From the NCBI GenBank assembly GCA_037974665.1, contig CM075777.1, positions 14,097,001 through 14,161,000 on the forward strand: 64,000 nucleotides of DNA, written 5' to 3'. The stretch comes from Ehretia macrophylla (taxonomy: Eukaryota > Streptophyta > Magnoliopsida > Boraginales > Ehretiaceae). The translations under genes were made by a program, and so were the position numbers. The stretch's first letter is position 1. The number at the start of each line of letters is the position of its first letter. The notes beneath the pieces are model-generated. The model did no database searches and was not told where the DNA came from. It saw only the letters and a list, made by a program, of their open reading frames with translations. Of the stretch, positions 1-42,052 are shown in pieces.

Positions 1-53
1 GAAAAGGCTGGTTAACAAGATAGCAGAGATATCAACAAACAGAGAAGGCTCAC

Positions 54-3661: not shown

Positions 3662-4950
3662 CAGAGATTGAATTGGGAATCGAATTCGATTACGTACTCT
3701 CTATGTTTCAATGGAATTGGAACGAATTGAAGATTGGATAATTTGGGAGTAAATTAGGGTTTTGAGGGAAGGGCGGGACAAGGGAGATTTTGGAGGGAGG
3801 TTTTTGGGGGTAATGGGAAAAATTGGTTTCCCGCCGGGAGGGGAGGGAGAGAGAAATTGAGAATACCGAGTGAGCTTGTTAGGGAGTTAATTTTAATGGG
3901 GAAAGTCATGCTCCACTCCGTTTTTATTTTGCTTTTCTTTTTTCTTTTTTTCTTTGAGTGAATTTCGTATTTTGGTGGCGAATGTAAGTTCTGCCGTCAC
4001 CAATTTTATTTGTTGACGTTTGCGGTTCACTGTTACGTTATGTATTATGTAAATGACGGATAATATGGGTAATAGATTTTCATGAATGATGTTAGTTGAA
4101 GGGATTTTAAAGCGGGAATAAGTTTTATTATCATATTGAAGTTCATTGTTCGTTCTCAAGTTTTTTATATTAATGACAAAGATCAACGAGTAATAGATGT
4201 TTATGAGTGATGTAAGTTAAAATAATTACAAGGTGATTCATAATTCGAGCAATAATAATCGTTGTTGAATTTACTTATTGTTGACGTTCACTGTTGGTGG
4301 TACCAAGGCAACAGAGAGATCTCCCTTAAGTGTTCTTGGCTAATAGGAGTAAAAAGACAATTGATGAAATTTACTATCGTCACTCGTATGGGTTGAGTTT
4401 TGTCATTTGTTGTTACTTTGTGTCCCGCAAAAAACAGTGAAGATTAATAAATAACTAATTTCCGTGTGTGAAGTCCTTTGACATATAATTAAAAGGATTT
4501 CAAAAAGTAAATTAGTTACAAGATTGATAATAGTTATGTAAAAAAATTGAAACCTTTTTAAATAATGTTTGTCCTTTAAATCTATTATACTTACAAGGTC
4601 AACAAACAATTAGGACTTTTTCTCTCATCCATTTTCTCTCTAGGTCTAAACTATACTATTTAAGGTGATATTATATCTTTTACAGGTCCTCATATATTAT
4701 TTAATACATGTACGAATTACTCCGTAATATTATTACCAACAAGAAATCGAAGGTAACTTTGCATATATTATTAAGTATTTGATGAAAAGGTGTTACCAAT
4801 AAAGTAGTGAAATAACAATGTGCTCCTGATGCTGCTAATTAATTTTTCAGAAAACACGTAATTTCACAATCTATTCCTAGATATCACAATGAATGCGTCA
4901 AAGCTGTATTTATATATGAATCATTACAAAGTGAAATAATTTTGGACCTT
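3662..4950. other. Upstream region of the ATX-like gene; no gene seen
   Basis: This contains the presumed 5' UTR and promoter of the minus-strand ATX gene. A purine-rich GGGAGGGAGAGAG segment lies near 3835-3855. A loosely duplicated stretch containing GTAATAGATnTTxATGAxTGATG occurs at about 4068-4107 and 4187-4225, suggesting an old tandem duplication. I found no coherent coding exon or convincing TATA box. The rest is AT-rich. Confidence 0.5.
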
Positions 4951-5201
4951 TTATTTTTATTTTTTGATTACGCGGGAATCAAGTTGGCAGAGCCCGCTAT
5001 CGAAGATCGACAGAGCCCGACCACCTTCTGGTAAGTCGTCAAGTATAGCAATACATCTCAATACATGCACCAGTTCAGTCAAAAGTACCCAGAGCAGGTT
5101 GCATGAATCGAATTCGGAACACTGCATTCGACACTCGTTCATTACCGTTGGATTGTCCCTTGAGGACAACCTTATCTATGAAGGATTTGATCACAAGACT
5201 A
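4951..5201. other. Unassigned intergenic segment between the ATX upstream region and the first retrotransposon
   Basis: It is open in two opposing frames over about 200 bases, but neither translation resembles a family I know. It is less AT-rich than its surroundings and could be a degraded transposon edge. No function is assigned. Confidence 0.3.
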
Positions 5202-5371
5202 ATGGCATTATATATCGCAACCAGCAATTCTTTTAGCTGAAAATATTACAAAGTGCTCTATAATGGGTGTGACAACAACTACAGTAATGACATTATCTAT
5301 CAAAACCAACAACTATTTTAGCTAAAAATATTATAAAGTGCTCTATAATGGGCATGACAACAACTACTAAC
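5202..5371. repeat. Imperfect tandem duplication, about 85 bp x 2
   Basis: Two adjacent copies share the order ATGxCATTAT, TTTTAGCTxAAAATATTA, AAGTGCTCTATAATGGG and TGACAACAACTAC, starting at 5202 and 5287. About one base in ten differs. Confidence 0.75.
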
Positions 5372-5437
5372 GAACGTTGTTCATGTTAAGGCTCATCATT
5401 TGACGTCACGTAGTGTGTAATAGCGATAGTAAAGTAG

Positions 5438-7491
5438 TTGGTCCGAGAGGATGGGAGGACCCAAAGGCCAATATACTATGTCAGTAAGGTGTTCCAAGGA
5501 GAGGAAACAAGGTACCCACCAATCGAAAAGGTCACTCTGGCCCTGATAACAGCCTCGAGAAAACTGAAGCATTACTTCGATGCATATACGATCCGTGCAA
5601 TGATAAACCTACCCTTTAGGCAGGTCATGCATCGACCAGAAATATCAGAAGGTTGCTGAAATGGGCGGTGGAGTTGATTCAGTCCGACATCGAATACCAT
5701 CCAATGACGGCAATTAAGGCGCAAACACTCACGGACTTCATAGTCCAGTGCACTGGAAGAGTCTATGAAGAGGCAGACCCAACCTGGCAAATACAGGTTG
5801 TCGGATCTTCCAGCAGGCAAGGAAGTAGAGCCGGAGAGGTGTTCACAAATCCAAAAAGGGATGAGATGTTGTATTCCCTAAAGTTTGGTTTCCCCGCCTC
5901 AAACAATGGAGCAGAATACGAGGCGTTAGTGGCTGGGCTAAAAATTGTGACTCCACTTGGAGCTCGAGTTGTAGAAGTGAAAATAGATTCACAGCTGGTT
6001 GAGCACCAAGTCCTCAGGGAGTACGAGGCCAAGAAGTCCACCATGGCGGCATACCTATCTCAAGTAAAGGACCTCATTTCAGGACTCAACCGCTTCAGCA
6101 TATCCCAAGTCCTATGCAGAGAGAATAAGAAAGTAAATGCGTTTTCTAGACTTGCACTGAACACTGCCGAAGGAGCAATAGTTCAGCTTGAGGAGGTCGA
6201 GAAGCCCAGTATCTCGATTAAAGGTAAGCAAATAGCAGTGATCTACAAAGAGGACTTTTGGACCCGACCCATCTTCAAGTACCACAAAGAATGAACGTTC
6301 CCCAAGAGCAAAAAAGAAGCTAGAAAAATTGAACATCAAGCTTCCCAATTCACACTTATTGGAGATCAACTGTACAAAAGGTCCTTCACCTGGCCACTAC
6401 TCAAATGTGTGGACAAGGAATAAGGCATATATGTACTTCGGGAAGTTCACGAAGGCATATGTGGAAATCACCTCGGACATAAAGCTTTAGCTCGGCAATT
6501 ATTGAGGCAAGGTTACTACTGGCCCACTATCCATGAGGATTCACGAGACTTTGTGCGACGATGTGACAAGTGCCAAAGGTTCTAAAAAATCACAAGGCTG
6601 CCAGCAACCGACCTCACTTGCATTACAAGTCCATGGTCGTTCGCTCAATAGGGGCTTGATATCATAGGCAAACTACCAGTCAACGTCAGTCAAAATAAAT
6701 ATATCTCCGTGGCAGTCGACTACTTCACCAAATGGGTAGAAGCTGAGCCGACCTCGACCATAACAGACAGGGCGACTTGGAAATTCCTATGGAAATTAGT
6801 TGTCTGTAGGTTCGGGATCCCACGAGCTGTAATCACTGACCACGACACTCAGTTCGACTATACTTACTTCAAAAAGCACTGTTAGGACCTAGGCATATCA
6901 TTAAGATTTGCATCAGTAGTTCATCCCCAAACAAATGGCCAAGTAGAAGTCATTAACTAAGCTATTTTGCAAGGATTGAGAAATAAACTGGATGACGCCA
7001 AGGGCCTTTGGGCCGAGCTGCTCCCTGAGGTATTGTGGTTGATGAAGACGACCCCAAGCTTCGCAACAAGAGAGACTAATTTATGCCTCACATTTGGGAC
7101 AGAGGCGGTGCTACTAGTGGAAGTAGGCTCACTGACCCTTAGGACCCTGAGCTTTGATGAGCAGACAAATAATCTGGTCCTGAGGGAAGACCTCAACCTA
7201 GCAAAAGAGTTTCGACAAAAGGCACAGATCAGAATGATAAAGAGCAAAAGGGCCACAGAACGAAGCTACACTAAACTTGTTTGCCCTCGTCGTCTACAAA
7301 AATAGGACTTAGTCTTTAGAAAGGCAAGCTTCCGACCTGACCCTACCTAGGAAAAACTTGGGCCACGTTAGGAAGACCCTTACAAAGTTGAGGAAGAATT
7401 GATGCCAGGAACTTACAAGTTAGCAGAAATCGAGGGGAAAGTGCTTAAAAATGCTTGGCATGTCAAGCATCTTAAGAAATATTTTGTATAA
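5438..7491 (+). pseudogene. Ty3/gypsy pol remnant: RT end, RNase H, second RNase H, integrase (Tat lineage)
   Basis: It begins within the RT connection/RNase H boundary (PIYYVSKVFQGEETRYPPIE), continues after a frameshift near 5650 with LLKWAVELIQSDIEY-like sequence, and then an RNase H-like domain (FPASNNGAEYEALVAGL, then IDSQLV). The integrase part has the zinc-finger region (LLRQGYYWPT, CDKCQRF near 6570), a core with DYFTKWVEAEP (about 6720), VITDHDTQFD (about 6830) and VHPQTNGQVEV (about 6920), and ends at a TAA at 7489-7491. Stops interrupt it near 6421, 6583, 6883, 6957 and 7303. The gypsy identity is clear; it cannot make an intact polyprotein. Confidence 0.88.
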
Positions 7492-8058
7492 GCTTGATTT
7501 AAATCATCAATGAAATACAATGCTCTTTCCCATTTGCAAAGTCTGTATGAAGTTTTTGTTTCCACAAATGCACCTCTAGGTCAGTATGAACTAAGAGAGT
7601 AGCAGGTTAAAACAAGCAGGTTACAAGTCACTTAGACAAGACTTGAGGTCGAAGGCCTTAAGAACTCGACTTCCCTAAATCGCTAAGGAGCTTCTAAGTT
7701 AAACAAGCCAATAAGCGATAAAGGTTGAGAAAAGCCTAAAAGCAACTGGTAGTTGCGCAAAAGTGATCACAAAAATAAAGGCCAATGACTAGCCTCAACA
7801 ATCATGCATGAAAAAATAAAACATACGTACAAGAAAGACCTCAATGAGGCATGAGAAATCACAAGTCTTGTTAAGGCAAAGATTTCCATACAGGAAGTCC
7901 TAAAAAAGGCATAAGAAATGGCAAGTTCTGATGGATAAAGATTTCTTAAAAATCAAAAAGTTAACTTTTATAAAATAGAGTTGGCAATTACAAAAATAGG
8001 TCCATAAACGACCCCAAGAAGTTACATCAAAAGCAAAAAAAAAAGGCCGCAAGCTACC
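7492..8058. other. Spacer between pol and antisense accessory gene of element 1
   Basis: It is non-coding as far as I can see. A short imperfect tandem repeat (about 60 bp x 2, sharing GGCATxAGAAAT, CAAGT and AAAGATTTC) lies at about 7836-7955. The 3' end of the minus-strand accessory gene adjoins at 8059, so this stretch would hold the convergent transcript ends of pol and the accessory gene. Confidence 0.5.
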
Positions 8059-10341
8059 CTAACTAACATCTACAAAGCCCTCATCACCATCTTCTGATTC
8101 AGAGTAAGACTCACGAGTGAGCCAGAAAAAGTCAATGTTGACACCTTGAGCCTTGGCAAGCTTTTTAGCTCGAGCTTGAGCTATCTCCCTAGCCTCGGCA
8201 GCACCTCGAGCTCTTGCCTTTGCATAATCGTCCTTAAAATGCTGGCGAAGCCGAGGACTCTTCTTGTATGCTTCAACGGCCTCTTGAGCTCGGGCAAGTG
8301 CATTCGCTAGTATTGTACTCAGAACTATGGTTATCACATCCATAGACTATATAGTAGCAGCCTGCCTAGCCTCAACATTCTTCATAATGGCGTCCAGTTT
8401 TTCCAGCTCAGTCTTGATGGCTGTGATTTTAGATCCATGCTGCTCCTTCAGGCCCGCAATCTCCTTTTTCCTTGGCCTTCTTGTACTCAGCATAGCTCCG
8501 AATGTGAGCCTTCTTCTCATGATATCGCTCAGCAAGGTCATCAAAGATCTCTGAGGCCTTTACAACATAGCAAATGACATCATAGAATGTTTGAGTTTCC
8601 TGGCAAAAGGAAATGAAAGAGGTCAGGAAAGTAGAAAGGTAGAAACTGAGGGATCAAAGGAAGATAGTAAAAGTTTACCTGCTGAAAGCAGTATGTGGTA
8701 GTATACCTCAGGGTGGAAGAGTTGACCAACTTAGAGGACTCTTTCAAGATCCGCTCAAAATTAGGATCTCTCATAAAAGCAAGATCAGGACCCACTTCAA
8801 CTCGAATCCCAAGACTAGGTCAGGAAGATAAATGACATTCCTCGTCAGGTGAAGGCACACCCTGTTGTCTTTCGGGAACGACAATCTCTTCTGGAACCTT
8901 TAAAGGTGTGGGCCCTCTTGTTTCGTTGATGACATATGGGGGAGGTGTGACGCCCTGACTTATAACTGGGAACACGTCCCCGACCTCATATTCTTCTACA
9001 TCCGATTCAATCTTTTGCCTCTTTGAAGGCTCAACATGCATTTTTCCTTTGCGCTTGGCCTTGGCCTTCCTGCGAACTTCTTTCTCAGCAAGGATTTAGG
9101 CCTAGGTTTTATCGGCTAAGTCCATTCCCGAGAATAAAAACATGGGTTAGTCCAAAGAATTGCAGAAATAATAAAAACAAAGCAAAAACTCCAAGGTACT
9201 CAACCTCCCTATTGTTAGCATCAGTAGCTGGCGGAAGGTCCAAAGTGCCTGTTCCATTTTGCGGAACAACTCAAGAAGGGCTCGAACCACTCACCTTAGC
9301 TTGAGGGGCATTAGCTCAAGGCGCTTGAGAGCGATTGCCATAAAGACCCGAGCCAATGACACTGTCAAGCTTAAGGTAAGTCGTGTCGTTAGGCCTACAA
9401 CCCTCAAAGGCCATGGATGTTCTCTCTTCCTCGGGAGTTAATACCCCAACCATAGGGTAGAGAGATTTAAGAAGACGCCACACCGACCTCACACCCCACT
9501 CCTCACTCAATTTAATAAAGAAATATTTGGTGCGCCACCCTTTGTTAGACGAATGGCACATCTTAAAGAGGTTTTTTATTAGGTCGAGCGCATAAATAAT
9601 ATCAGCCCGCTCCTTCATAAACCTTTAATTGGTAAAAATAGAAAAAAAGATTGGGAGTGGGCTCGAAACCTAACTTCTTGATGTGCATATAAAATGCAAC
9701 CATCATTCGCCAACTATTTGGGATCACTTGACCCGGAATGAGTTCGACTATGTTCAGAATGGCTCTAATGAAAGGAGGAATGGGAAGAGAAAGAAACTTA
9801 AAGATGTAGATGTAAAAGGTCACATCTCCCCAACCTGGCTTGCAAGCCTTCTCCTCTGCGTCAAGGACACGGACAGTAAACTTAGGAGGGAGACCCCTTT
9901 GTCACTTAGTCTCGGCCTGAGCTCGTAGGTGGCATCGTAATATCGTCGCAAAGCGGCAAAACATATCTCACCAGGCACAACAGACTCAGACCCATTAGAC
10001 CTTCTAGCGGGAACAGGGCTCGATGATGCAGCAATAGGGTCACTTGAGGTCCCCGCCGCCTCTACGGGTGGATTAAAATCACCTACAGGAAAGAGTTCGA
10101 CAAGTACTATCCTAAAAGAATAGGGGTCAGGGACATCGCTACCTGGGGGCACGACACTAAACGGAGTAGCCACCACTGGCATAAGCCTAGGAGAGACTCT
10201 CGTAAGATTTCTCACGACAAGCTTCACGGGATTTCTCTCAACGAACATCTCGGAACTAGAGAAATACCCATCACTTTCACCATTCCCCCCACCATAAGAA
10301 TGAGTGGATTGATTATGAGAGTCAAAGTTACTACTACCCAT
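8059..10341 (-). pseudogene. Antisense accessory gene of the Tat-lineage element (putative gypsy-type transposon protein), decayed
   Basis: It is read on the minus strand from ATG 10341. The N-terminal region is Ser/Pro-rich. A core domain follows at about 9840-9600, with LPIPPFIRAILNIV, PNSWRMMVAFY and FYFYQLK, the pattern of the plant 'putative gypsy type transposon' family; then WGVRSVWR. The C-terminal part is Ala/Lys/Glu-rich and probably coiled-coil. A likely GT-AG intron lies around 8680-8601. A run of four C on the plus strand near 9894 marks a one-base frameshift: the upstream frame stops at 9820 while the conserved frame continues through KACKPGWGDVTF. More breaks occur downstream. 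The function of this family is unknown; its position opposite to pol is typical for Tat-lineage elements. It is the counterpart of the accessory gene in element 2. Confidence 0.75.
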
Positions 10342-10569
10342 TTCGAAGGAAAAAAGAAAATGGAGAAGAAAAGAAAAGTGGGAGCAGAGATGACGTACCT
10401 AGAAGGCAAAAAACCTTAGGAAAAGAGGAATACTTGAGACTCCAACGGCTGCCTAAGGATCAAAAAAAAGAAAAAGCCCACGAGGAAAGAATGGAGAACC
10501 TTTTTAAAGAAAGAAAGTAGAGAGAAGATGCTTGGTTAAAAGTGATTTAAAAATGAGCCCAAAAGAGCA

Positions 10570-10578
10570 CTATTTATA
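10570..10578 (-). promoter_or_regulatory. Candidate TATA box of the antisense accessory gene, element 1
   Basis: TATAAATAG on the minus strand, about 230 bases upstream of the proposed ATG at 10341. It would give an RNA antisense to the retrotransposon. Element 2 has a comparable TATAAA upstream of its antisense gene. Confidence 0.5.
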
Positions 10579-10778
10579 ACCAAAGGAGCGGGAAAATAAA
10601 AAGTCACCTCGGTCACCAAGGGTTACCACGTCTCTCAAAAGTCGTGTAACTAACGCACTAATCAAAGAACGACACGTGGCAGAGAATTTAATGATCTGTC
10701 AGGAGACGAGGTCGGGTATGGTTTACAAACAACTATTCCTCGACCAATCTTCGTTTGATCAATAAATCGAGGAGCAGT

Positions 10779-11320
10779 TGATAAGGGAATAAATACTAAC
10801 CTCAAGCTAAAAGACCAACATGCCCACCAACCTGTGCTAAATTAAGAGGGCAGGTCGGGTCTCCCATGCGGAGCTCGACCTCCAAACCTCGACCCGAAGA
10901 CATCCCATGAGACTCAACCCGATGCTGTCCCAAATTACATATCGACCCGACAATATCCCGCTGAGGTCAAGATATTCTAACAGAATAACAAAAAGAATGC
11001 CAACTCATCCCAAAAATCCTAGAGGTGCTAGATTCTTTCATATCCCAAAGGCATGAAATGACGAACACATCCTTCAGGGAAGATACCTAATTCATTATAG
11101 TAAAATTATATACATTTCTCCTTCTTCGTAAAGCACCCTACTAACTTAGGCATTGGAGTGCTTACGCAGGGTACCACCCCTACAGTTCTTTCTTATCTTG
11201 CAGGTTTTGGAAGTTATCCCCGGGCCACTTTCTAAACCCAATTTCTTACCTTAACATTAGTAAATGTTCAAGTAAGGTTGACACCAAATAAATAATAATA
11301 ATAAAATAATTGTTCCAACA
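10779..11320 (+). repeat. Probable 3' LTR of gypsy element 1
   Basis: It begins TGATAAGGG after a purine-rich stretch (AATCGAGGAGCAG) and ends TTGTTCCAACA, a terminus common for Tat-lineage LTRs. No 5' LTR is present to confirm the limits. Element 2 starts only seven bases further on. Confidence 0.5.
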
Positions 11321-11327
11321 CTATAAT

Positions 11328-11760
11328 TGTTAAGGTAAAACTTTGACTACCCCAAGCTGCTTATTGGGCTGGACCTGAACTTGCAAAACAAATGAACCAA
11401 GGGGGGTGCCCACAGTGCCCACTCCGATGCTCAAGTCAGTTAACGGTAGAAATAAGCTCATAAGCAGTAGGTGAAGGATGTTTTTTTTGTATACCTCGTG
11501 CTATTGGATTGCTTCATATTTATACCCGTGGCCGGGTAGTTTCCCAGATGAGGGAGAACTCTTCAAGATCTGGATTTCTGAGAGTCCTCATTTGCTAAGT
11601 AATTCACCCCGATCATCTTTCCTACGAGTCCCTTCCTATCCGGACTTCTCAAGCTTATCCTTATCACCACAACTTCCCTGTGCGCGTGTCCGCCTCATTA
11701 TCTCGACAGATCCGGGGCTCAGAGAATGCCGGGGCTGTTCTTTATTGAAGAAACTCTTCA
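11328..11760 (-). repeat. 3' LTR of gypsy element 2 (left copy)
   Basis: It matches the copy at 37632 almost base for base for about 410 bases, from TGTTAAGGTAAAAC to the TTCTTTATTGA region, then the two diverge. The inner limit at 11760 (CTCTTCA) is approximate. Confidence 0.8.
11515..11524 (-). promoter_or_regulatory. TATA box in LTR of element 2
   Basis: TATAAATATG on the minus strand, in the transcription direction of element 2. The same motif is kept in the right LTR at about 37810-37819. It is the likely retrotransposon promoter. Confidence 0.55.
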
Positions 11761-11952
11761 AGGTCGGGGGATTGTTATACTAGTGGGGCTCTTCATCTTC
11801 CTCAACGGTTACTAGCCGTTACAACCGCCATCTGTACACGCCTTTCCAACTCAAATATTTTCCCACAGGCATGTCTCTCGCAACTCACACCTCCACTTCC
11901 CACGATCCTACGTGGGTCGCCTTACCAGCATGTGAGGCCCTGTGGGGTCTTT

Positions 11953-11958
11953 TATAAA
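11953..11958 (+). promoter_or_regulatory. Candidate TATA box of the antisense accessory gene, element 2
   Basis: TATAAA on the plus strand, just inside the 3' LTR of the minus-oriented element and about 195 bases before the in-frame ATG at 12147. It points in the direction of the accessory gene and against the retrotransposon. Confidence 0.5.
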
Positions 11959-12999
11959 GGGATCCCCCAAGACTTGTACCACATATGCATTCTGTTTTCC
12001 ATACTCCTTATTTTTTTCTATTTCTTTGCTCCTCCATGCTTATCACGCCCTATGTGAACTTCCATTCACTGCTTAGGTACGCTCATTTATCCCTTTTTTC
12101 AACATGGATAGGTCTCCCCAGTCAAGTGTCGCCGGCGAGTCCAGTGATGGTCGCTGTTACTCAAATTTCTCATAGTCCTCCTCCCACTAGGGGTGTTAAA
12201 AATAGCTCCAAGAGATCTAGGTCTACGTCGTCTCTCCACCGCCCTTCCGCGACACCACCGGGTCCTGCTAGAATTGATGACCTTTTAGTTTTCGGTGTCG
12301 AGTATAAGATCTGCACCACTCTTAGGAAGTCTATTTCCCACCTTAAGGGCATTGGAGCCATTCCCCATGACTTCGAGGTCCGCATTCCAAATGATAGTAA
12401 GTTGGCGTCCGCTTGTGGGCCTGGAAAATGAGAGGTTACCTTTTACTATGAGCAGCTCCTTATAGGCCACCTGCGCCTTCCCCCTTATCTGGTGGAAATT
12501 TTCAACTACCTTTAAATCAGTCCTGCCCAGGTTATTCCTAACAACTAGAAGCTGATGGTAGGTTTCTATGTTTTATTGAAGGAGTTGGGTTATACGCCCA
12601 CCTATAAGCTCTTCCTTTTCTACCATCAGCTTAAAACCATTGACAAATCCTCAAGCTGGCACTATTTTTTTGCCCGCCATCATCCCCTAATCATTGATGT
12701 CCCTGATAATTCCAAGAACTGGAGCAACAAGTTTTTCTTTGTGAAATCCCCCACGGGATGGGAGGTCCGGGGCATCTGGGTTATCCCTCCTACAATAGCC
12801 AAATACCCTCATACCCTTAACGAGAATGAGAAATCAGTTATCGAGGAGCTTAAAAGAGTCATCCCCGTTAGATGTGATGTTCTTCTAACCTCCAAGAGGA
12901 TAGCCGCTAGTGGCTTGTTTTCGCGACCCACAGCGCCAATGGTCGGAGCTCCTCCTTTACCCCTCACGAACCGTAATACCAGGGCTAGGGGGAAGGCCT

Positions 13000-14475
13000 T
13001 GTTAGGAATAATGCCCAAAAGCCAATAAATTGTATTTTTGGAATTATGGATAATGTGTTATTTAATTTATTAATTCATTTAATATGAGCAGTTTATTTAT
13101 TTATTACAAATATTTTGATTAAATAAATAAAATCCTTAGAATACTATTTATAGATTCCATCCTTAGGAGTAAGGATATGAGTAACGAAATCTATAATCAT
13201 AAATATATTCTAAAAGTTGTCCCCGATCAAAGGGTAAACTAATTGGGCGTTAGTTTATCCGGATAGATCAGATTACAGTTTACTAACCAAATTATATGAG
13301 ATATCAGTTTGGGCGATTTGTCTCATATCATTGTAGTAGATGTATAAGTACTTATTGTGAATAAGTTACTGGACTTGACAACCGATGCAATGAATTACAT
13401 GGAATGTCAATAGTTCGTTGTATCATGTAATTATACAATTAATCCTCAGACCTGAGACACTACGATTATCTCATGATTATGAATGTCATGATTTGCTGGT
13501 GCAAATAAGCTAGTTCTAATCATGGATTAGACAATGTATTCAATGGTTGTGATTTATTCCGTCATGCAGAAATGTATGTGTAGATACGGAAACTGTCAAT
13601 TGGGTGTCCTATGCAATCTGATTAATTGAGTGACTTGAAATCCTTGGCCAATGTGGAATAGTGGAAGTCGTTTCATGAATTATCCATTAGTCACTAATTA
13701 ATTGGGTTTTGACATATGGTCGAGTAAGAGAGTTTGACAACCCAAGCCATGACTCTGGCTCGATCGGGATAATTGAGACAATAGGATTTGATTGCATATA
13801 AATTACTATTTGGGTTCGCATGCTTGCACTTCATATTTAATTGGGTAATCGCGATATACTGTTAGGTGTTACTCGCGATTTGCGAATTAATTAGAAAGAG
13901 TTATAATTTAATTAATTAGTGGAATTAATTATTCGCTACCGATTAATTATGAACCCGAAAGATCACACACGAATAGAATTTGCAGATTAATTGGATTAGA
14001 TAAAATATTAAATTAAATTTAGGATCCTTCTAAATATTAATTTAATTGGGCTCGTAGTAATTAGATAGTAATCTGATTATTATGGAGCCCAGGATTGGTA
14101 AGTTTAAGACCAGCCCACTTATGGCTTAGGTCATATGTGTTTCCTATATATAGAACTATTCTAACAAATAAATAACTAGCACAATTTTATCAGTCAGAAA
14201 AATATATAAGAATTTTCTAGAAACCTAGGGGGTAGAAATCCAATTAGCAAGCGCGGATTATGTGTTGATCAATCTTGGAGGCTTCACATGTGGGGAGCTT
14301 GATTTAGATTCTACATCGAACTACTCTTCAAAAGGTAATCCTAGAACTATTGCAGGTTTAATTTAATTAGATTAAATTATTATCTGATTTAGATCTGCAT
14401 AATTAAACATGGACGGATACATAATTAATTTTTTCCGATGCACAATTATTTAAATTGTCATGTATATTTCCTATA
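13000..14475 (+). repeat. 5' LTR of the copia element
   Basis: It starts TGTTAGGAATAATG. The 3' terminus reads CCTATA instead of the expected terminal CA of the other LTR. It carries TATATATAG at 14145-14153 as a likely promoter element (same in the 3' LTR at 21668-21676). Confidence 0.92.
14145..14153 (+). promoter_or_regulatory. TATA box in copia 5' LTR
   Basis: TATATATAG, conserved in position in the 3' LTR and recognisable in the solo LTR at 29765-31235. It is the likely start region for element transcription. Confidence 0.55.
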
Positions 14476-14476
14476 G

Positions 14477-14491
14477 TGGTATCAAAGACAC
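14477..14491 (+). promoter_or_regulatory. Primer-binding site of the copia element (initiator tRNA-Met type)
   Basis: TGGTATCAAAGACAC begins two bases after the 5' LTR. The usual plant copia site is TGGTATCAGAGC, so the first eight bases fit and base nine differs. Confidence 0.8.
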
Positions 14492-14730
14492 CATTCATGT
14501 TTGTTATGTGATTTAGCGTTTATGGCACAATTTCCTATATCTCTTATGTTTAAAATTAAAGTTGTTTAATTTTATAATAGCCTAATAAAAATTATTCTTC
14601 CCTGTTAAGAAAAACTTTCATAAGATATTATTATAGAAAAATTGTTTTTCTGTAAATCTTGTTTTATTTTTTTCCAGATTTTTAATTTTGTTCAAAGTTG
14701 TTTTATTATTTAAAAAAAAAATTTGCATAC

Positions 14731-14880
14731 CCCTTCCCCAGGCAGTGGCGCCGTCACTGCCAGTAGTGGCTAGGCCACTGCCGGTAGCGGCGCCTCAGTA
14801 GCGCTGCCTAGCAGCGACGCTGCGCAGAGGACAGCGGCGCTGCCAGTGTGGCAGTGCCGCTGCCAAGGTAGGGGGAGGGG
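14731..14880. repeat. GC-rich, self-complementary block in the copia leader
   Basis: It contains many GGCAGTGGC/GCCACTGCC, GGCGCC and GCAGCG units in both orientations within about 130 bases, inside otherwise AT-rich DNA. The RNA would fold strongly. A purine run follows (AGGGGGAGGGGGCG then GAAGAAGG). Confidence 0.7.
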
Positions 14881-15279
14881 GCGTTGGGGAAGAAGGAAAG
14901 GAAAAAAAAATGTTTATGTTTTTTTTGGATCTAAGGTTTCGACCCATATCCAAATCCAAGTGGGGATTCGAATCCAGGTCCAAACCCATGACCAAGGGTT
15001 GTGGGCTTGTTTTGTTTTATTTCTTTCTAATTGGGCTATTTGGTATATGGGCTCTTTGGGTTGTTTTAAAATATTGTTGGGCTTAGCTTATTTTAATAAA
15101 AGGGTTGCACTGTTTTATTTAAATTTAGCCCAAGACTTAATTTTAATAAAAACCCAATTTGTTTAAAACCCATATAATATTAAGAGATTTTAATTAATAA
15201 ATTATTTATTAATTATTTTAAATAATAAATAAAAGGAGTTTTATTTATTTTAAATATGAGACATTTTTGCTTATTTAAT

Positions 15280-15411
15280 AAATGGTTTATTAAATTATGC
15301 AACTAGATATAATGAGATTATATAAATGGTTTATTAAATTATGCAACTAGATATAATTAGATTATATAAATGGTTTATTAAATTATGCAACTAGATATAA
15401 TGAGATTATAT
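15280..15411. repeat. 44-bp tandem repeat, three copies, in the copia leader
   Basis: Units start at 15280, 15324 and 15368, each opening AAATGGTTTATTAAATTATG and ending in ATTATAT. The copies differ at about one position (ATGAGATT versus ATTAGATT). Confidence 0.9.
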
Positions 15412-16153
15412 CAAGGAAATTAACTGTGCCATATTCGTGGATTAACTATTATATTTATAATTGAATGTTTGGATGATCATGGACTAGAATAGATGAATGA
15501 ATGACGAATGAATGGATGTATGTTTATTTATTTATTCATTTGGGTTTTATGTAATTATTTAAATGGGGCTTGCATGTCTTTTACCCATTTTGATAATGTA
15601 AAACCCCTATTCCCATTTATGTATCCCATTAAATTAGGAATCTATGTACATAAATGTAACAAGGAGACTAAGCAGGACATATTTAGGAATTGGTAGACCC
15701 GGTTAGCAGAAGAAGTTTTGTGAAGCCCAACAAGGAGTAGCCCAACAATTGGGCCCTAATTTTATTTTAGGAATTCAACCCAGTGGCTCGGGTTGATAGT
15801 GCTCCTAGTCCATGATCATCCTATTTATTTACATGCATTTATTTATTATGCGATATATATATTAAAGTCGTGAATGTTTCTAGTTTAGTTTATGTGATAA
15901 ATTGAAACCAGAAGCATGTGAAAAGTGAGACCTTAATTAAAGACCGGCAAATCTTCCCACTCCAAATATTAAGTTAATAATGATAGTAGTCTAAGAGTAG
16001 ATTATATCATTGTCTTTTATTATCATAGATTAGTTTATGTGTTAGGCAAGTGAGTAGCTGGCTGTGGACACATAGGGGCTATTTATTTGTATTAATACGT
16101 GAGCTAAGTCTTTAAAACATGAGATGTAGGAGAATTTGGATTCTTACTAGCTA

Positions 16154-16360
16154 CCAAAAATCTATCATATGAGGGGTCGGTATTGCATTGATCCAAATTT
16201 CCTAAGATGGGTTTGACTTAAACAATTCTTGGAAGACCAAAAATCTATAATGTGAGATCAAGGGAATTGTAGGCAAGTAAATTGGGAGCTGTATGTGATG
16301 CATTGAATAAGGTGTTATTCACTCATTAGTCTTTGTATCACCAAGAATCTATAATGTGAG
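16154..16360. repeat. Dispersed triplicate motif upstream of copia gag
   Basis: A motif of the form CCAARAATCTATMATRTGAG occurs at about 16154, 16237 and 16341, in the last 400 bases before the gag ATG (16535). The second and third copies share ATCTATAATGTGAG exactly. Confidence 0.75.
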
Positions 16361-16534
16361 GTGAAACAAAAATTAATGCCCCCAATCACTAAGAAAATCA
16401 TTTATTTGATTTTTCGTTTTCTACTAGAGAAGTGTGGAATTCGAAAAATTTAGTGGGGATACTATTTAATTTAAAGACCCAAGTCAAGTAGTTAATACGT
16501 TATCTAATTTCAATTAATTATTTTCTGCAGTTAC

Positions 16535-19500
16535 ATGCCAAAAATGAATCCTCTTGCAACTATCCTAGATAAGAACTGTTTGACCGGACCAAACTATGCT
16601 GACTGGTTCCGCAACTTGAAAATCATACTAAGTTCTGAAAAGATTGAGTACGTGTTTGATTGTCCACTTATTGAAGAGCCTCAAGGGGCAACTGAAGAGG
16701 AACTGGAAACCATTAGGAAATGGCGTGATGATGCGTTGAAGGTTAAAAGCTACGTTTTGGCTTCAATGTCAAATGAGCTTCAACGTCAACACAAGGACAT
16801 GGAAGATGTCACTGAAATCATCACACACTTACAAGAGTTGTATGATGTAAAGAACAGGGTTGCTAGGTATGAGATATCTAGGGAATTGTTCCGATTGAGG
16901 ATGAGTGTGGGATCAGATGTCAGCACGCATGTTCTTAAGATGATCGGTTTGATCGAGCGTCTTGAATCCTTGAATTTCTCTATGGATTCGAACTTGCAGA
17001 CTGACTTAATACTTCAATCTCTACCTGAATCCTTCCATTCCTTTATTATCAATTTCCAGATGAATGACATTGAGCGCACCTTACCTTAGCTCTTGAATAT
17101 GCTGGTTATATATCAAGGGCAGATAAAAGGAAAATGTAAAGAAATTGTGTTGGCATTTGCCTCTTCTTCATCTGCTAAGAAGCAGAAAAGGAACAAGAAG
17201 AAATGTAAAAAAGCCCCTCAAGGCAAGCCTACAAGAGGCGTGTCCAAGGAGAAGGGAAAGGTAGCAAAGCCTGGAACTTGTTTCCATTGTGAGAAGGAAG
17301 AACATTGGAATAGGAATTGTCCAGAGTACCTCAAGAGTTTGAAGAAAATGGGCAAGGCTTCTGCAGGTATGTCTCGATTGCTCATGTTTGAGATTAGTCT
17401 TTCGATTAATCATGATTCTACTTCATGGGTGCTAGACTCTGGCGCCACTTCTCATATATGTACTTCTGTACAGGAACTGAGGAGAAGTAGAGCTTTGGGA
17501 GAAGGTGACGTGGTCCTGAAGGTGGGAAATGGAGCAATGGTTGCTGCGTTAGCTATTGGGACATGTTGTCTTACTTTGTCGTCTGAATTTACTTTGGTTC
17601 GGGATAATTGTTTATTTTTGCCAAATGCTTTGAGAAACATCATTTCCGTTTCAGTTGTAGTTCAAAATGGTTTTGAATTTAATTTTATGGATAATGGATG
17701 TTTTATTTATTTGTGAAATAAATGTGTTGGCACTGGCAAATTAGTAAATGGGTTTTATATACTTGATATAAAGAAAGACGACAATAAAAATGAGCAATGC
17801 ATGAATGTACAGACCTTTAAAAGGTCTAGAGATACTATTAATTCTAAATATTTGTGGCGCTTAAGATTAGGTCACATAGGGGAAGCTAGAATCACGGAGT
17901 TGGAGAAAGAATGACTTATAAGCCCATGTGGCCCGAGTCCATTCCCAGCATGTGAATCTTGCATCATTGGTAAAATGACCAAATCACCCTTTGTGGGACA
18001 AAGACAAAAAGCTACAAACATTTTAGAGTTGATAAACACTGATGTGTGTGGGCCTTTTGGTGAATTGGCCCGATGTAGTTTGCCTACTTCATTATTTTTA
18101 CTGATGATGTGTCTCGGTATGGGTCTGTGTATCTTATGAAACACAAATCTGAATCCTTTGAAAGGTTAATAGAATACAGAGCAGAAGCAGAAAACCAAAC
18201 TGGAAAAAGGATTAAGGCTTTTCGGTCTGATCGAGGAGGGGAATACCTTAGTACTGAATTCCAGGAATATCTAAAAGAAAATGGTATAATCGTATCATTG
18301 ACTCCACCTAGAACACCTGAGCTTAATGGTGTGTCAGAAAGGAAAAATAAGACTCTGTTGGATATGGTCAGGTCAATGATCAGTTATACTGATTTACCTA
18401 TTGGCATATGTGGCCATGCTCTTCTCACTGCGGCATACATCTTGAATAGGGTCACTTCCAAATCAGTTATAAGCATTCCTTATGAGATTTGGAGAAATAA
18501 GAAGCCCAGCTTTAATCACATAAGAGTATGGGGTTGTCCTACTTACATTAAAATGCTTAAAATTGAGAAATTGGAAGCGAGATCTGACAAAGTCAGATTC
18601 ATTGGTTATCCCAAAGATTCGTTGGGATACAACTTTTATTCCCTTACTGACCAGAGAGTCTTCGTCAGCAGATATGCCATATTCTTGGAGGAAGAGTTCA
18701 TCCAAGAAGGTGGTTTGGGAAGAAAGGTAGAGCTTAATGAGGGAAACATTGAGCAACCAATTGACCAAGTAGAAACTCAGGATTTGATCCAAGATGAAAC
18801 TATTCAAGAAGAATCAATTGCTTCACCACAGATACGCAAATCTTTAAGGATTGTTCGTCCCTCCACAAGATATAACTACCTTCATAGCCAAGGACAAAAG
18901 TTGTTCACATTGGATGATGGTGATCATGTTGATGATCCCCTAACCTATGAAGAAGTTATTTCTGATAGGGACTCAGAAAAATGGCTTGAAGCCATGAAAT
19001 CTGAAATGGATTCAATGCACACCAATCAAGTCTGGAATCTTGTAGACCCATCTGAGGGTATTGTACCTATTGGGTGCAAATGGGTATATAAGAGAAAAAG
19101 GGGTACAGATGGGAAGGTGGAGACCTTCAAGGCAAGGTTAGTGGCAAAAGGTTACCGTCAGAAACAAAGAGTTGACTATGAGGAAACCTTCTCGCCAGTA
19201 GCAATGCTAAAATCCATTAGGATTTTATTGGCTATAGCTGCACACTATGATTATGAGATATGGCAAATAGATGTCAAAACAGCTTTTCTTAATGGCTTCA
19301 CTGAAGAAGACATTTATATGGAACAACCAATGGGTTTTGAATCCATGGGTGAAAGTCACAAAGTGTGCAAGCTAAAGATATCTATCTATGGACTCAAACA
19401 AGCTTCAAGGAGTTGGAACAAACGTTTTGACGAGGTTGTCAGAACATTTGGCTTCATTAAGAATGAAGACGAGCCTTGTGTTTACAAGAAAGTCAGCAAT

Positions 19501-20511
19501 AAAGCAGTTACATTCCTCATCTTGTATGTAGATGACATACTACTGATTGGAAATGACATTGGTATGATGTCATCTGTCAAGGTCTGGTTATCAGGAACAT
19601 TCTCAATGAAAGACTTGGGAGAAACAACCTATATCCTGGGAATTTGAATCTATAGAGATAGATCGAAATGATTGATAGGTCTCTCCCAGAGTACGTACAT
19701 AGATAAGGTGTTAAAGAGGTTTAACATGCAGGATTCTAAAAGGGGGCTGTTATCTTTTAGACATGACATTCATCTCTCTAGGGCTATGAGTCCTAAGACA
19801 GCTGAAAAAAGAGAGAGGGTGAATAGGATTCCATATGCTTTAGCAATTGGAAGCCTTATGTATGCTATGCTATGTACTAGGCCTGATATCGCTCATGTTA
19901 TAAGTGTTACTAGCAAATATCAGTCAGATCCAACTGAGGAACACTGGATAGCAGTCAAGAATATCCCGAAGTACCTGAATAGGACTAAGGATATGGTCTT
20001 GGTATATGGAGGAGGGGAATTGAAAATCGAGGGTTTCACTGACTCAGATTTTCAGTATGATGTGGATGATCGTAAATCAACATCTGGATTCATTTTCATT
20101 TGTAATGGAGGAGCGGTCAATTGGAAGAGTTCCAAACAGAATACGATTGCAAATTCTACTACAGAAGCCGAATACATCGCAGCATCAGATGCAGCAAAAA
20201 AGGCAGTTTGGATCAAGAAGTTCATCTCAGAACTCGGAGTGGTTAACTCTATTGAGGTCGCAGTACCTTTAAATTGTGATAATAATGGAGCGATAGCGCA
20301 AGCTAAGGAACCAAGGTCTCATAAAAAATCCAAACACGTAGAGAGGCGTTACCACATTATCCTAGAAATTGTGGGAAGATGTGACATAGTGATGTAGAAA
20401 GTAACTTTAGTAGATAACACTGTTGATCCGTTGACCAAGGCTCTGACTAAGCAGTCTTTGGATCGATACTTAGAAGGGATGGGTATGAGATACCATTCTG
20501 ATTGGCTTTAG
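16535..20511 (+). pseudogene. Copia gag-pol, defective: gag, protease, integrase, RT, RNase H
   Basis: It is a single long frame as is usual for copia, now broken. Gag from ATG 16535 (LTGPNYADWFRNL); zinc knuckle CFHCEKEEHWNRNC (CCHC) at about 17278-17320; protease WVLDSGATSHI at about 17428; integrase HHCC region 17850-18000 with LRLGHIGEA and CESCIIGK; integrase core FRSDRGGEYLS and ERKNKTLL (18220-18360); RT from VWNLVDP (19030) through LVAKGYRQK, KTAFLNG and YVDDILL (19527); RNase H with KSTSGF, WKSSKQ and TTEAEYIA (20070-20175). It ends at TAG 20511. Stops lie at 17087 (end of gag), 17714, 17912, 19645, 19669 and 20395; a frameshift lies near 18080. All expected domains and the YVDD catalytic motif remain visible. 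Confidence 0.93.
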
Positions 20512-20514
20512 TGT

Positions 20515-20525
20515 AAGTGGGGGAT
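20515..20525 (+). promoter_or_regulatory. Polypurine tract of the copia element
   Basis: AAGTGGGGGAT lies immediately before the 3' LTR at 20526, the normal place for the plus-strand primer. Confidence 0.75.
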
Positions 20526-21978
20526 TGTTAGGAATAATCCCCAAAAGTCAAAAAATTGTTTTTTTGGAATTATGGATAATGTGTTATTTAATTTATTAAT
20601 TCATTTAATATGGGCAGTTTATTTATTTATTATAAATGTTTTGATTAAATAAATAAAGTCCTTAGAATACTATTTATAGATTCTATCTTTAGGAGTAAGG
20701 ATATTAGTAACGAATTCTATAATTATAAATATATTCTAAAAGTTGTCCCCGATCAAAGGGTAAACTAATTGGGCATTAGTTTATTCGGATAGATCAGATT
20801 ACAGTCTACTAACCAAATTATATGAGATATCAGTTTGGGCGATTTGTCTCATATCGTTGTAGTAGATGTATAAGTACTTATTGTGAATAAGTAACTGGAC
20901 TTGACCACCGATGCAACGAATTGCATGGAATGTCAATAGTTCGTTGTATCATGTAATTATGCAATTAGTCCTCAGACCTGAGACACTGCGATTATCTCAT
21001 GATTATGAATGTCATGATTTGCTTGTGCAAATAAGCTAGTCCTAATAATGGAATAGACAATGTATTCAATGGTTGTGATTTATTCCGTCATGCAGAAATG
21101 TATGTGTAGATACGGAAACTGTCAATTGGGTATCCTATGCAGTCTGATTAATTGAGTGACTTGAAATCCATGGCTATGGTAGAATAGTGGAAGTCGTTCC
21201 ACGAATTATCCATTAGTCACTGACTAATTGGGTTTTGGCATATGGTCGAGTAAGAGAGTTTGACGACCCAAGCCATGACTCTGGCTCGATCGGGATAATT
21301 GAGATAGTAGGATTTGATTGCATATAAATTACTATTTGGGTTCGCATGCTTGCACTTCATCTTTAATTGGGTAATCGTGATATACTGCTAGGTGTTACTC
21401 ACGATTTACGAATTAATTAGAAAGAATTCTAATTTAATTAATTAGTGGAATTAATTATTCGCTACCGATTAATTATGAACCCGAGAGGTCAAACACAAAT
21501 AGAATTTGCAGATTAATTGGATTAGAGAAAAGATAAAAAATTTAGGATCCTCCTAAATATTAATTTAATTGGGCTCGTAGTAATTAGATAGTGATCTGAT
21601 TATTATGGAGCCCAAGACTGGTAAGTTTAAGACCAGCCCACTTATGGCTTAGGTCATATGTGTTTCCTATATATAGAACTATTCTGACAAAGAAATAGCT
21701 AGCACAATTTTATCAGTCAGAAAAATATATAGGATTTCTCTAGAAACCTACTGGGGGTAAAAATCCAATTAATAAGCGCGGATTCTGTGTGGATCAATCT
21801 TGGAGGCTTCACATGTAGGGAGCTTGATTCAGATTCTACATCAAACTACGCTTCAAGAGGTAATCCTAGAACTATTACAGGTTTAATTTAATTAGATTAA
21901 ATTATTATCTGATTTAGATCTGCATAATTAATTTTTTTCGTTGCACAATTATTTAAATTGTCATGTATATTTCTTACA
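20526..21978 (+). repeat. 3' LTR of the copia element
   Basis: TGTTAGGAATAATC ... TTTCTTACA, 1453 bp, followed by the second GGCCT target copy. It matches the 5' LTR along its length with scattered substitutions and a few small gaps (for example near 21535). Confidence 0.93.
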
Positions 21979-22918
21979 GGCCTCTCTTACCCCTACTTCA
22001 GCAACTGCCCAAAACCTTAAAAGATTTGACCCTACGTCCCCCAACACGTCATCTGCTACCGCGGGTTAGGCCTTATTCCTGCGTCTGTTTCTATATTTTT
22101 ACTTGAAGATCTCGGAGCTCATCACTTCTACCCAAGGAGAACGGGTGACCCAAAGGCGTTTGGTCAAAGCCTTTGGCCAACTTGCCTTGAAGAAGCAGAA
22201 AGTGGTCTCTTTTGCCGATGACGAGGAAGTGCAAAACCTCAAAGAGCCCCCTGCTCCTGCCTTGAAGAGCTCAGGTCCCACCGAGAGGCCCTTGGCTCCC
22301 CCTCCAGGCAGCCCAGACTTACCCACTATTGGGCCCGCCAAAACTGGGGCGACTGCCCCCACATCTCCTCTTGAAACGTCATCAATTCATCCTCGTAGGC
22401 GCTTGCCATCTCCGCCTTCATCTTTTGCTAAAACCGGGGCTTCGCTTCCCTCTCCTCCTATTGACACACTGCGGGAAAAGCAGCGTCGCCCCATCGACGA
22501 AGCTTACCAAGTTAACATCTCCCGTCTACGGAGGCGCGGTGGGTCTGTCCCTCCTGGCCCTTCCCTTGGCTTTGACGATGAGATCGAGTTTGACGATGGG
22601 CAAGGTGGTACCACCCGTGTCTCAGCTCGTCGCCTCATTGCCGCCAGGGCTGACCAGGAAGTCAGGGAAGCCTTTTATGAGGTAACTTGTTTTACCCATT
22701 TCCTTCTTTGTCGAATGTTTCCTTTTATTAATATTCTGATTTCTTATTCACAGAGCTGGCTAAACCTGAACCACCTCTATGGGATGCTCAACAAAGCCCT
22801 GGTGGCTTATGAAAGGGTTGAAATCAACTCTTCCCTTGCAGTGCTCACTGCCGCCAGGACTGTACAGATAGAGGGCAATGAGGCTCTATGTGACGAGACT
22901 GATTTCTGTTTCTATTGA

Positions 22919-23743: not shown

Positions 23744-26700
23744 TCAAAAAAGCATTACATAGACTTTTATTGAATGCTGTTTATTCACTAACATTGTTCT
23801 AGGAATTTTACATGAAATATTTCTAAGATGTTCAACATTCCATGCATTAGCTAATTCCTTTCCACTAGGTTCTTCGAGCCTAAAGACTCCAGATTTGACC
23901 TCCTTTGATACCAAGTAGGGACCCTCCCAGTTTGGCCCCAACTTTCCTTGCCCAAGCTGGGATTTGAAGATAGCCTTCCTGAGTACCCAATCACCTTCTC
24001 GGATGTTTTTGGGCTGAACTCTCTTGGCAAAGAACCTGGTCATGGCTCTTTTTTCCTCCAACATTTTTTTCTGTGCCTTCTGCCTAAACTCTTCGATCAA
24101 GTCAAGGTCCTCTCGGAGCCCTTGATCATTTATTTCTTCTTCGTAAAGCTAGACATGGCTACTTGGGGCACCAGCTTCCACTAGGAGTACCGCCTCGTGC
24201 CAAACGTTAGCGAAAACGGGGTCTCCCCTGTTGCGCCCACAAGACTTCTGGCAGTATGTCCACCTATAGCCCTTTTGTTTGCCCCAACTTAGTTTTGATG
24301 CCCTGCAAAATAGCTCTGTTAGTTACCTCGACCTGCCCATTAGTTTGAGGATGAACTATAGAAGCAAATTTCAATTTAATTCCTAACTCATCGCATTTGC
24401 CACGAAAGTAGTTAGAGTCAAATTGTCTGCCATGGTCCGTGACCAGAGCTAGAGGCACCCCAAAACAACACACCACCGACTTCCATACAAAGTTCCAGGC
24501 TACTCACTCAGAGATTCTAAGGACAGCCTTGGCGTCTCCCTCCACTTAGTGAAGTAATCAACCGCCACAAATACGAACTTCTTTTGTCCGTTGCCTAGAG
24601 GTAGGGGCCCCAGGATGTCCATCCCCCACTGAGCAAAGGGCCAAGGGTTGATTATGTAAGTCATCTCCACTGCCGGTTGCCGAGGTATCTTGGAAAACCT
24701 CTGGCAGGTGTCACATTTCTTCACCATCTCCAACGCATTCTTCTGCATGGTAGGCCAGTAATATCCCTGTCGGAGGGTTTTCCAGGCTAACGCCCTGCCC
24801 CCCAAGTAATTTCCCCAAACCCCCTTATGTATTTCTCAGAGCACATAGTTGCCCTCATCTCGATTTATGCATTTTTGCAGCGGCCAATTATAAGCCTGCT
24901 TGTACAACTGCCTCCAACATGACGAATTTTGAAGTTCAACGCTCCACACTCCGGTCTTCAACCTAGTTGCGGGGGAGATCACTCTGCTCCAAATATGCTC
25001 TTATTGGTTGTATCCAATCTTCTCGTACAGTCATGGCTGTAACCTCCAAAGATAGGGGTTGTATAGACGGGATCTCTACCTCTCTTACCTTTATAATTGT
25101 TGGCCTAGAGGAACTTACAGCCAATCTCGTGAGAGAGTTTGCCCTTTCATTTTCAGACCGAGGAACCTGGCTGATATGAAAGTGCTCCAGTCCCCGAACC
25201 AGCCCCTTGACCTTGTTATGGTGGCCAATATCGTCATATTCTTTGCCTCATACTCACCCAGTACTTGATTCGCCACCAATTGCGAGTCTGTAATCACGTC
25301 TACCCTCCTTGCTCCAAGTGAGATAACCGTCTTAAGGCCTGCTATTAGTGCTTCATACTTGGCCTCATTGTTAGAAGTTGGGAACAAAAACTTGAGTGAG
25401 TACTGACTCTCTACTCCATCAGGGTTAGTGATTACAACTCCAGCTCCACTCCCCTGCCTTCCAGAGGCCCCGTCGACTCGTACCTTCCATGGGGCATCAT
25501 TTTTCTCTACTTGGTCCCCCGTGCATTCGACCACAAAGTCTGCCAGGGCTTGTGCTTTGATGGTTGTGCGGGGCTGATAGAAAATATCATACTGACTAAG
25601 CTCCACAGCCCATTTTAGCAAACGTCCAGAAACCTCTGGCCTCTACAACACCTGCCTCAGGGGCATATCCGTCAAGACCTAAATCGTGTGAGCATTAAAG
25701 TAATGTCTGAGCTTTCGTGCCATAGTTAAGAGAGCCAACGCCATTCTCTCCAACGTTGAGTACCTGAGTTCTGATCCCTGCGATATCTTACTCACATATT
25801 AAACAGGCTTCTAGAGCCGGTCCTCCTCTCTTATTAAAGCTGCTGCCACTGCCTTACCCGAACTAGCCAAGTATAAGGTCAAGACCTCTCATTTTTCTGG
25901 TCTGGACAAGAGCGGAGGCGATGCAATGTATTTTTTCTCTTCCTCGAAGGCCTCCTAGCATTGCTCGGTCCGCTAGAAGTTTTACCTTGAAAAAAGGGGT
26001 ACATTTATCCGCGGATCTAGACATAAACCTACTCAAGGCCACTATTTTTCCTGCCAAATTCTGCACATCTTTAACATTCCCAGAGGGTTCAGGTCCAATA
26101 TGGCCTGGACCTTATCTGGGTTTGCTTCTATCCCCCGACTGGTGACCATGAAGCCCAGAAACTTGCATGCCCTAACGCCGAATGCACATTTCTCCGAGTT
26201 GAGCTTAATCCCGAATTGCTCCGTGGTAGCAAAGGCTTCTACCAGGTCGGCCACATGGGAATTGACACGCTTTCTTTTAGTCAACATATCATCGACGTAA
26301 ACCTTCATATTCTTGCCAATCTAACCGTCAAACACCTTGTTCACCATACATTGATACATAGTTCCAGTATTTTTCAGCCCAAAGGGCATCACGCTATAGC
26401 AGTAGGTCTCATCTCTGTGATAAAGGTTGTTTTCTCTTCATCTTTCGGGGCCATCACAATCTGATTGTAACCTTTGAACGTGTCCATGAATGTGAGCAGC
26501 TCACAACGGAGGTGGCATCCACCATTTGATCTATCCTGGGCAGTGGGTAACAATCCTTGGGGCACGCCTCATTGGGGTCTTTATAATCAACACACAGGCG
26601 CCACTTTCCAGAGCCCTTGGGTACCAGCACCACGTTGGCCAACCATTCTGGGTACTGTGCATTTCTTATATGGCCTGCTTACAGCAACTTTCGAACCTCT

Positions 26701-27880
26701 TCCCTAATATTCTTGTTCCTTTCCTCCCCAAAATTTCTTTTCTTTTGTCGGATGGGTCGGAACATAGGGTCTACGTTCAATTTATGGACCATCACTGATG
26801 GATCTACACATGTCATGTCAGTTGTACTCCAAGCAAATACATGCATATTATGAGAAATAAAGTCAATTATACCTTGTCGTAGGTCTAGAGAGAGGTCATG
26901 GCCTATCTTGATTCGTTGGCCCTTTGAAATTTCTACCTTATCCAACTCATCGGCATGGGAGAACTCATTCTTTTTCTTATCCTCTATCATATCCAGCTGC
27001 GTAGGTTCTGGGCCCTTCATCTTGAGAGAAGCAGCATAACAGCAGCGTGCGGCCAACTGATCTCCCCTGACGGTGGCTACACCTTCGGGGGTTGGGAATT
27101 TCAGGGCTTGGTGTAAGGGAGATGCAACTTCCCAGAATTTCATCAGGGCCACTCACCCCAAGATCCTATTATAAGCTGACTCGTAATCGAGAACAATGAG
27201 GTATGCCATCATCGTTACTTTCTTCTTTCCTTCCTCCAAGGTCATGGGTAAATTTATAACCCCTTCCGGGCGAAAGGCTTCCCCTGTAAACCCAGACAAT
27301 GAGCCATTCAAGAGGCGGAGCCTTTCGCGCCCTATTCCCAGCTTGTCAAAAGCCTTTAGGAGCAATACTTCTTCAGAGCTGCCGGTATCTACCATCAAAC
27401 ATTTGACTATGTAATCAGAGATTCGAGCCTTCACCAACAGTGGATTATCATGCGGGTATATTATGCCCTTGAGATCATTTGTAGTGAATGTAAACTGTTC
27501 TTCAACCCCCGCCACCTTATACCGGGGCTCCACTGTCACAGCTCTAACGTAAGATCTTCTTGCCTTCCTACTGGCTCCACCAGATGCGAATCCCCGGCGA
27601 TGGTGTCCATCACCCCTAGGTGCCGATTCTCTTGATCCCTTATGTGTTTGGGGCTGCATTCCCTTTTGCGTCGACGACTGTGCTCCTTATCTCGTCTGAG
27701 GCTCCTCTCTCCCTCCTTCCAAGGTTCCTGGTTCCTTGCAACAAACCTGTTCAATAGTCCCTTTCTTACCAGCATGTCTATCTCTACTATGAGTTGCTTG
27801 CACTCTTCTGTATCATGGCCATGATCCCTGTGGTACCTGCAATACTTATCCTTAATCCTCTTTTTTGGATTTTCTGTCAT
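23744..27880 (-). pseudogene. Ty3/gypsy gag end and pol of element 2: zinc finger, protease, RT, RNase H, extra RNase H, integrase
   Basis: In coding order on the minus strand: zinc-finger-like end of gag (YCRYHRDHGHDTEECKQL, about 27850); protease VDTGSSEEVLLLKAFDKLG (about 27390); RT with LVPKGSGKWRLCVDYKD and ACPKDCYPLPRIDQMVDAT (about 26630-26530) and YVDDM (26300); the RNase H domain of the Tat lineage (LLKWAVELSQYDI, FPTSNNEAKYEALIAGL, 25621-25115); integrase with CDTCQRF, WGMDILGPLP, VAVDYFTKW, VTDHGRQFD and VHPQTNGQVEVTN (24805-24264), and a C-terminal part to 23744. Several stops and frameshifts separate these blocks. It is closely related in layout to element 1 but clearly diverged in sequence. 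Confidence 0.9.
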
Positions 27881-42043: not shown

Positions 42044-42052
42044 ATTTTTTAA

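Follow-up and report, generated by a model that had tools for sequence, protein, structure and literature searches.

Introduction

A 64,000-nucleotide (nt) stretch of the Ehretia macrophylla genome (contig CM075777.1, positions 14,097,001 to 14,161,000; hereafter the window) holds two long terminal repeat (LTR) retrotransposons, elements 1 and 2, each with a gene on the strand opposite to pol, and raises the question of what this antisense gene is, whether it encodes a selected protein and whether its transcript is spliced. The genome comprises 1.58 Gb in 20 contigs, and the window is plant-like DNA with 37% GC. Both elements have decayed and probably belong to the Tat/Retand group of Ty3 retrotransposons, their antisense gene being the accessory gene TRP28 (PF04195) that this group is known to carry between pol and the 3′ LTR. 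We make this assignment because the antisense TRP28 gene occurs together with a ribonuclease H (RNase H) of PF13456 type and with features of the lineage. The gene itself is already known, and splicing is possibly the sole new detail.

Results

A probable TRP28 gene opposite to pol in both elements

Pol lies on the plus strand in element 1 and on the minus strand in element 2. A tblastn comparison of pieces of element 2 with window positions 1-8000 returned 12 rows, and the 7 with an expect value (E) below 1e-7, spanning RNase H to integrase, show 46-64% amino acid (aa) identity, save one at 33%; elements 1 and 2 are therefore taken to be different families. The pair of diverged, oppositely oriented elements described in the original prediction is borne out by the strands of pol and by these identities.

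The antisense genes were divided into the following parts.

9823 to 10341, minus strand: element 1, N-terminal part with ATG at 10341; open frame without Pfam match, which finds itself alone when searched in the window by tblastn
9319 to 9901, minus strand: element 1, TRP28 core divided between two frames; PF04195 match and homology to element 2
9140 to 9230, minus strand: element 1, T-rich island that separates the core from the basic region, a possible further intron judged by its T content, with weak splice sites
8062 to 8599, minus strand: element 1, C-terminal part beyond the candidate intron, broken into frames by stops; the reading frame ends at 8059
12104 to 12998, plus strand: element 2, N-terminal part and TRP28-like core, start codon uncertain; three in-frame core stops, homology to element 1
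21984 to 22681, plus strand: element 2, gene to the right of an inserted Copia element; contains a T-rich island, then a stop near 22067, and is open afterwards
22754 to 22918, plus strand: element 2, last 54 codons and stop; open frame

The element 1 piece at 9602-9901 (minus strand) matched PF04195 (Transposase_28, TRP28) with E 9.6e-8 and 32.6 bits, the curated cut-off being 26.2. In the same Pfam scan, none of the seven remaining antisense pieces from elements 1 and 2 matched this family, and the three element 2 pieces scanned gave no such match at E up to 1, the element 2 core being there interrupted by stops. The element 2 core is assigned to TRP28 because it is homologous to the element 1 core, itself a PF04195 match: element 1 9605-9901 (minus) aligns with element 2 at about 12357-12653 (plus) at 37-39% identity, with E 1e-21 and 5e-18 in two runs. 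A second core stretch also aligns (element 1 9319-9624 with element 2 12708-12779). The pol match of element 1 stops at 7476, short of the end of its antisense gene, which lies beyond pol. Antisense placement between pol and the 3′ LTR is complete for element 2, element 1 being without a defined 3′ LTR. A gene opposite to pol in each element, with a common core, is what had been predicted, and position and homology confirm it.

By eye, the composition at 8062-8346 of element 1 is rich in Ala, Lys, Arg and Glu, and element 2 has 54 residues only after its candidate intron. AlphaFold2, run on the element 1 core piece alone, gave a mean predicted local distance difference test score (pLDDT) of 46.8. 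No third core copy was found within the window; relatives were not confirmed in viral contigs and not found in plasmids, 0 of 15 pattern matches in prokaryote genome contigs were confirmed, the single match among solved structures had E 0.32, and Rfam gave 0 matches over 5000-40000.

Selection on the protein, and decay of the two copies

The main core alignment spans 90 codons, with 38, 31 and 66 differences at codon positions 1, 2 and 3. The nonsynonymous divergence (dN) is 0.54 and the synonymous divergence (dS) is saturated; dN of four pol stretches is 0.24-0.44, and the third-position excess of the core is similar in kind to that of pol. This excess argues that the TRP28 protein was under purifying selection in the past, and it supports selection at the level of the lineage while the two families separated. 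Two results weigh on the other side: the second core stretch, of 24 codons, has no such excess (10, 11 and 11), and beyond the core no convincing similarity was found between the antisense genes of elements 1 and 2.

We then have the genome-wide copies. A search with PF04195 yielded 3551 candidates at first look, and scoring was applied to the best 150; these top-scoring places overstate the share that is intact, and their orientation relative to pol was not part of the count. All 150 passed the PF04195 cut-off and, counted by hand, 139 have no stop inside the domain and 11 have one. At 40 of the 150 places (also a hand count) the open frame reaches 400 aa or more, the longest being of 617 aa; the chance of an open frame reaching 400 aa is 6.8e-13 per site at this GC. 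In 20 regions around strong reverse transcriptase (RT) matches plus two neighbours, the antisense gene was matched at E 1e-4 in 0 of 22 loci. A separate observation concerns the locus L006, where, past a more distant integrase match, a fragment at 7153-7242 is 60% identical over 30 aa to the element 2 integrase.

Both window copies are now decayed. The core of element 1, an apparently 5′-truncated element, continues in a second frame, with stops farther on, and that of element 2 has three in-frame stops in a gene split by the Copia insertion. That both elements "keep" the antisense gene, as the original prediction put it, is not borne out, and its claim of selection on a real protein holds for the lineage in the past, given the codon-position excess and the many open frames genome-wide, but not for these two broken copies.

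Candidate introns

GT-AG pairs of 60-130 nt in the regions after the core were scored with approximate plant splice-site weights, and each region was compared with 1000 dinucleotide shuffles. The best pairs are as follows.

8600 to 8678, minus strand: element 1, candidate GT-AG intron of 79 nt, phase 0, 47% T; top pair of its region at 9.8 bits, equalled in 16 of 1000 shuffles
22682 to 22753, plus strand: element 2, candidate GT-AG intron of 72 nt, phase 0, 51% T; top pair of its region at 9.8 bits, equalled in 11 of 1000 shuffles

On balance, we consider it somewhat more likely than not that the antisense transcript loses one or more short, T-rich introns ahead of its C-terminal exon. In each gene the candidate is the best pair of the region, and the two are alike in size and phase. 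Retention in element 1 would shift the frame and meet a stop after six codons; splicing leaves the frame open for 56. Both genes have two T-rich islands in matching order, the one between core and basic region with weak splice sites.

The strongest alternative is a genuine antisense TRP28 gene that is not spliced, with GT-AG pairs that are chance matches in a T-rich linker; we hold this to be a substantial possibility, somewhat short of even. Several results weigh against splicing and towards this alternative. The shuffles that reach the intron scores (1.6% for element 1, 1.1% for element 2) place the candidates moderately beyond chance. Equally good chance pairs do occur: scores of 9.8 or more were found in 12 of 252 one-kb windows on both strands, one of the 12 being element 1's own candidate. 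The element 2 candidate has a length divisible by three and, if retained, leaves the frame open. The flanking exons lack clear homology, the sequence before the intron being weakly alike (score reached in 399 of 20000 permutations) and that after it not alike (2227 of 20000). The long open frames of the genome and the published treatment of Retand TRP28 genes, as plain open reading frames in PMC11963269, also favour an unspliced gene. Against it stand the agreement of the two candidates in rank, size and phase, and the early stop that retention would bring to element 1. In each region the intron that had been predicted is the best pair, if only moderately beyond chance, and intron positions correspond in order, with flanking exons that are not convincingly alignable.

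Candidate promoters

A TATAAA string precedes each antisense gene.

10573 to 10578, minus strand: TATAAA before the element 1 gene; string match 237 nt ahead of the ATG at 10341
11953 to 11958, plus strand: TATAAA before the element 2 gene; string match about 200 nt inside the LTR inner edge

In element 2 the string sits 32 to 191 nt before the candidate ATGs at 11985, 12036, 12104 and 12144, which were picked by eye. Placement of this TATA within the LTR was considered and rejected, since it lies in the internal region. These candidate promoters are plausible because a promoter has been published for gene23 of the maize element Grande (PMC7264820). The counterweight is that each strand of the window holds 0.75 TATAAA strings per kb, a frequency from which the chance of one within 237 nt is about 16% and within 151 nt about 11%, and that the upstream TATA regions of the two genes align at best with E 0.05, without convincing homology. 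Taken alone, the TATA boxes would be weak support for a promoter. TATA strings within a few hundred bases of the ATG are present as predicted, but they are common by chance, and the sequence around them shows no clear homology between the two genes. The earlier argument from a conserved promoter plus intron holds weakly for the TATA box and moderately for the intron.

Layout of the elements and neighbouring features

The remaining parts of the two elements are these.

5477 to 7476, plus strand: element 1, pol remnant from RNase H to the end of integrase; tblastn match to element 2 pol pieces, PF13456 in 5620-6291 with E 5.9e-12
11328 to 11745, minus strand: element 2, 3′ LTR, inner edge approximate; 89% identical to 37632-38043
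37632 to 38043, minus strand: element 2, 5′ LTR of this 89% pair; a TGGCGCC primer-binding-like site follows inward
23744 to 27991, minus strand: element 2, broken region of pol and presumed gag; PF13456 in 25118-25642, PF17921 in 24500-24835
13000 to 21978, plus strand: Copia element inside the element 2 antisense gene; LTRs 92.6% identical, RVT_2 and rve domains, GGCCT duplication

Element 1 looks 5′-truncated, because about 25.5 kb upstream of it hold neither a match to element 2 pieces from before the RT/RNase H junction nor a copy of its 3′ end (10300-11330), hence no 5′ LTR; the queries were short broken pieces, which very diverged remnants could escape. At 5193-5362, immediately upstream of the pol remnant, a unit of 85 nt is repeated in tandem with 84% identity. 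The LTRs and primer-binding site expected of a Retand/Tat member were found in element 2 only (LTRs 89% identical, TGGCGCC). The divergence of these LTRs, as Kimura two-parameter distance (K2P), is 0.092, presumably some 3.5-7.1 million years at plant substitution rates, and that of the nested Copia LTRs is 0.059. The gag label within 23744-27991 is our assumption from a motif resemblance.

Two observations concern element 2 itself. A relative of the nested Copia LTR, 77% identical, stands alone within it at 29805-31166 and is solo-LTR-like. In its 5′ LTR, in sense orientation, 37685-37789 (minus strand) is the top GT-AG pair of the scanned 1-kb windows, at 15.3 bits; it could be a leader intron or chance. 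Elsewhere in the window, 2534-3700 (minus strand) is an acidic open frame of 389 aa with no Pfam match at E 0.01, and 41514-42045 is an imperfect inverted repeat whose 187-nt arms are 84% complementary, like those of a foldback element.

Discussion

The findings fit a scheme in which the genomic RNA would be made from the 5′ LTR, and the TRP28 gene would be transcribed from the other strand, driven by a promoter immediately inward of the 3′ LTR. The antisense transcript would shed one or more short T-rich introns ahead of its C-terminal exon. Genomic RNA would hold any such intron in reverse, where it is unspliceable, and reverse transcription would preserve it, so that a spliced accessory gene could persist through transposition. 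A nuclear accessory protein is the most likely product; it may bind DNA, may help or tune the expression or integration of the element and could act in trans. Trans regulation by the antisense product is a published conjecture (PMC11963269, PMC7264820), and we put forward a regulatory role for TRP28 as a tentative suggestion, closer to doubtful than to probable. The fuller reading is that Retand TRP28 in this plant is a multi-exon antisense gene whose introns survive each round of reverse transcription, like an antisense-intron retrotransposition marker, so that the protein could be made correctly from integrated DNA only; such a plant counterpart of spliced HBZ has, in our estimate from the sequence, not quite an even chance.

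The antisense transcript might instead act mainly as RNA, pairing with genomic RNA into double-stranded RNA that feeds small RNAs damping the element, with the coding frame secondary. This is raised as a possibility in PMC7264820 and we consider it unlikely here, the codon-position excess and the many long open frames favouring selection on the protein. It is highly improbable that the antisense frames are open by chance or are a by-product of selective constraint acting on pol: both copies are indeed in short pieces, but the Pfam match, the core homology across families and the open frames genome-wide contradict it, and the by-product version was rejected since the gene and pol do not overlap.

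The preferred interpretation, a decayed pair of Retand elements with an antisense and possibly spliced TRP28 gene, is on present evidence a mostly ordinary case. With it, one more genome supports what the literature holds, namely that Tat/Retand elements have long carried a selected, protein-coding antisense gene. A true intron would show how a retrotransposon can retain an intron-bearing gene, and spliced reads would be a clean mark separating true antisense expression from read-through.

Antisense open reading frames were predicted to be known in the Tat lineage, and they are: TRP28 frames are published as characteristic of Retand elements, in 97% of young clusters (PMC11963269). Among the literature matches listed, no spliced TRP28 gene is described, and the word "intron" is absent from PMC11963269. 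The closest known system is that of the Retand TRP28 frames (Vicient 2025, PMC11963269), which share the antisense orientation, the position between pol and the 3′ LTR and the PF04195 core, in eudicots and monocots alike; introns are not mentioned there, whereas the copies here are decayed and possibly spliced. Grande gene23 is likewise an accessory gene in antisense orientation, has a promoter of its own upstream and gives a nuclear product (PMC7264820), but the candidate promoter here is a TATA match only, and the two are likened by description and not by sequence homology. HBZ of human T-cell leukaemia virus type 1 (HTLV-1) is an antisense gene that an LTR retroelement carries, spliced and read from the 3′ side (PMC1459196), as TRP28 would be here; the comparison is only of how the systems would work. 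HBZ begins in the 3′ LTR, and the TATA here lies in the internal region. Finally, the Ogre intron (PMC6317226) is a spliceosomal intron in a plant element of the Tat group, as these would be, except that the candidates described here are antisense.

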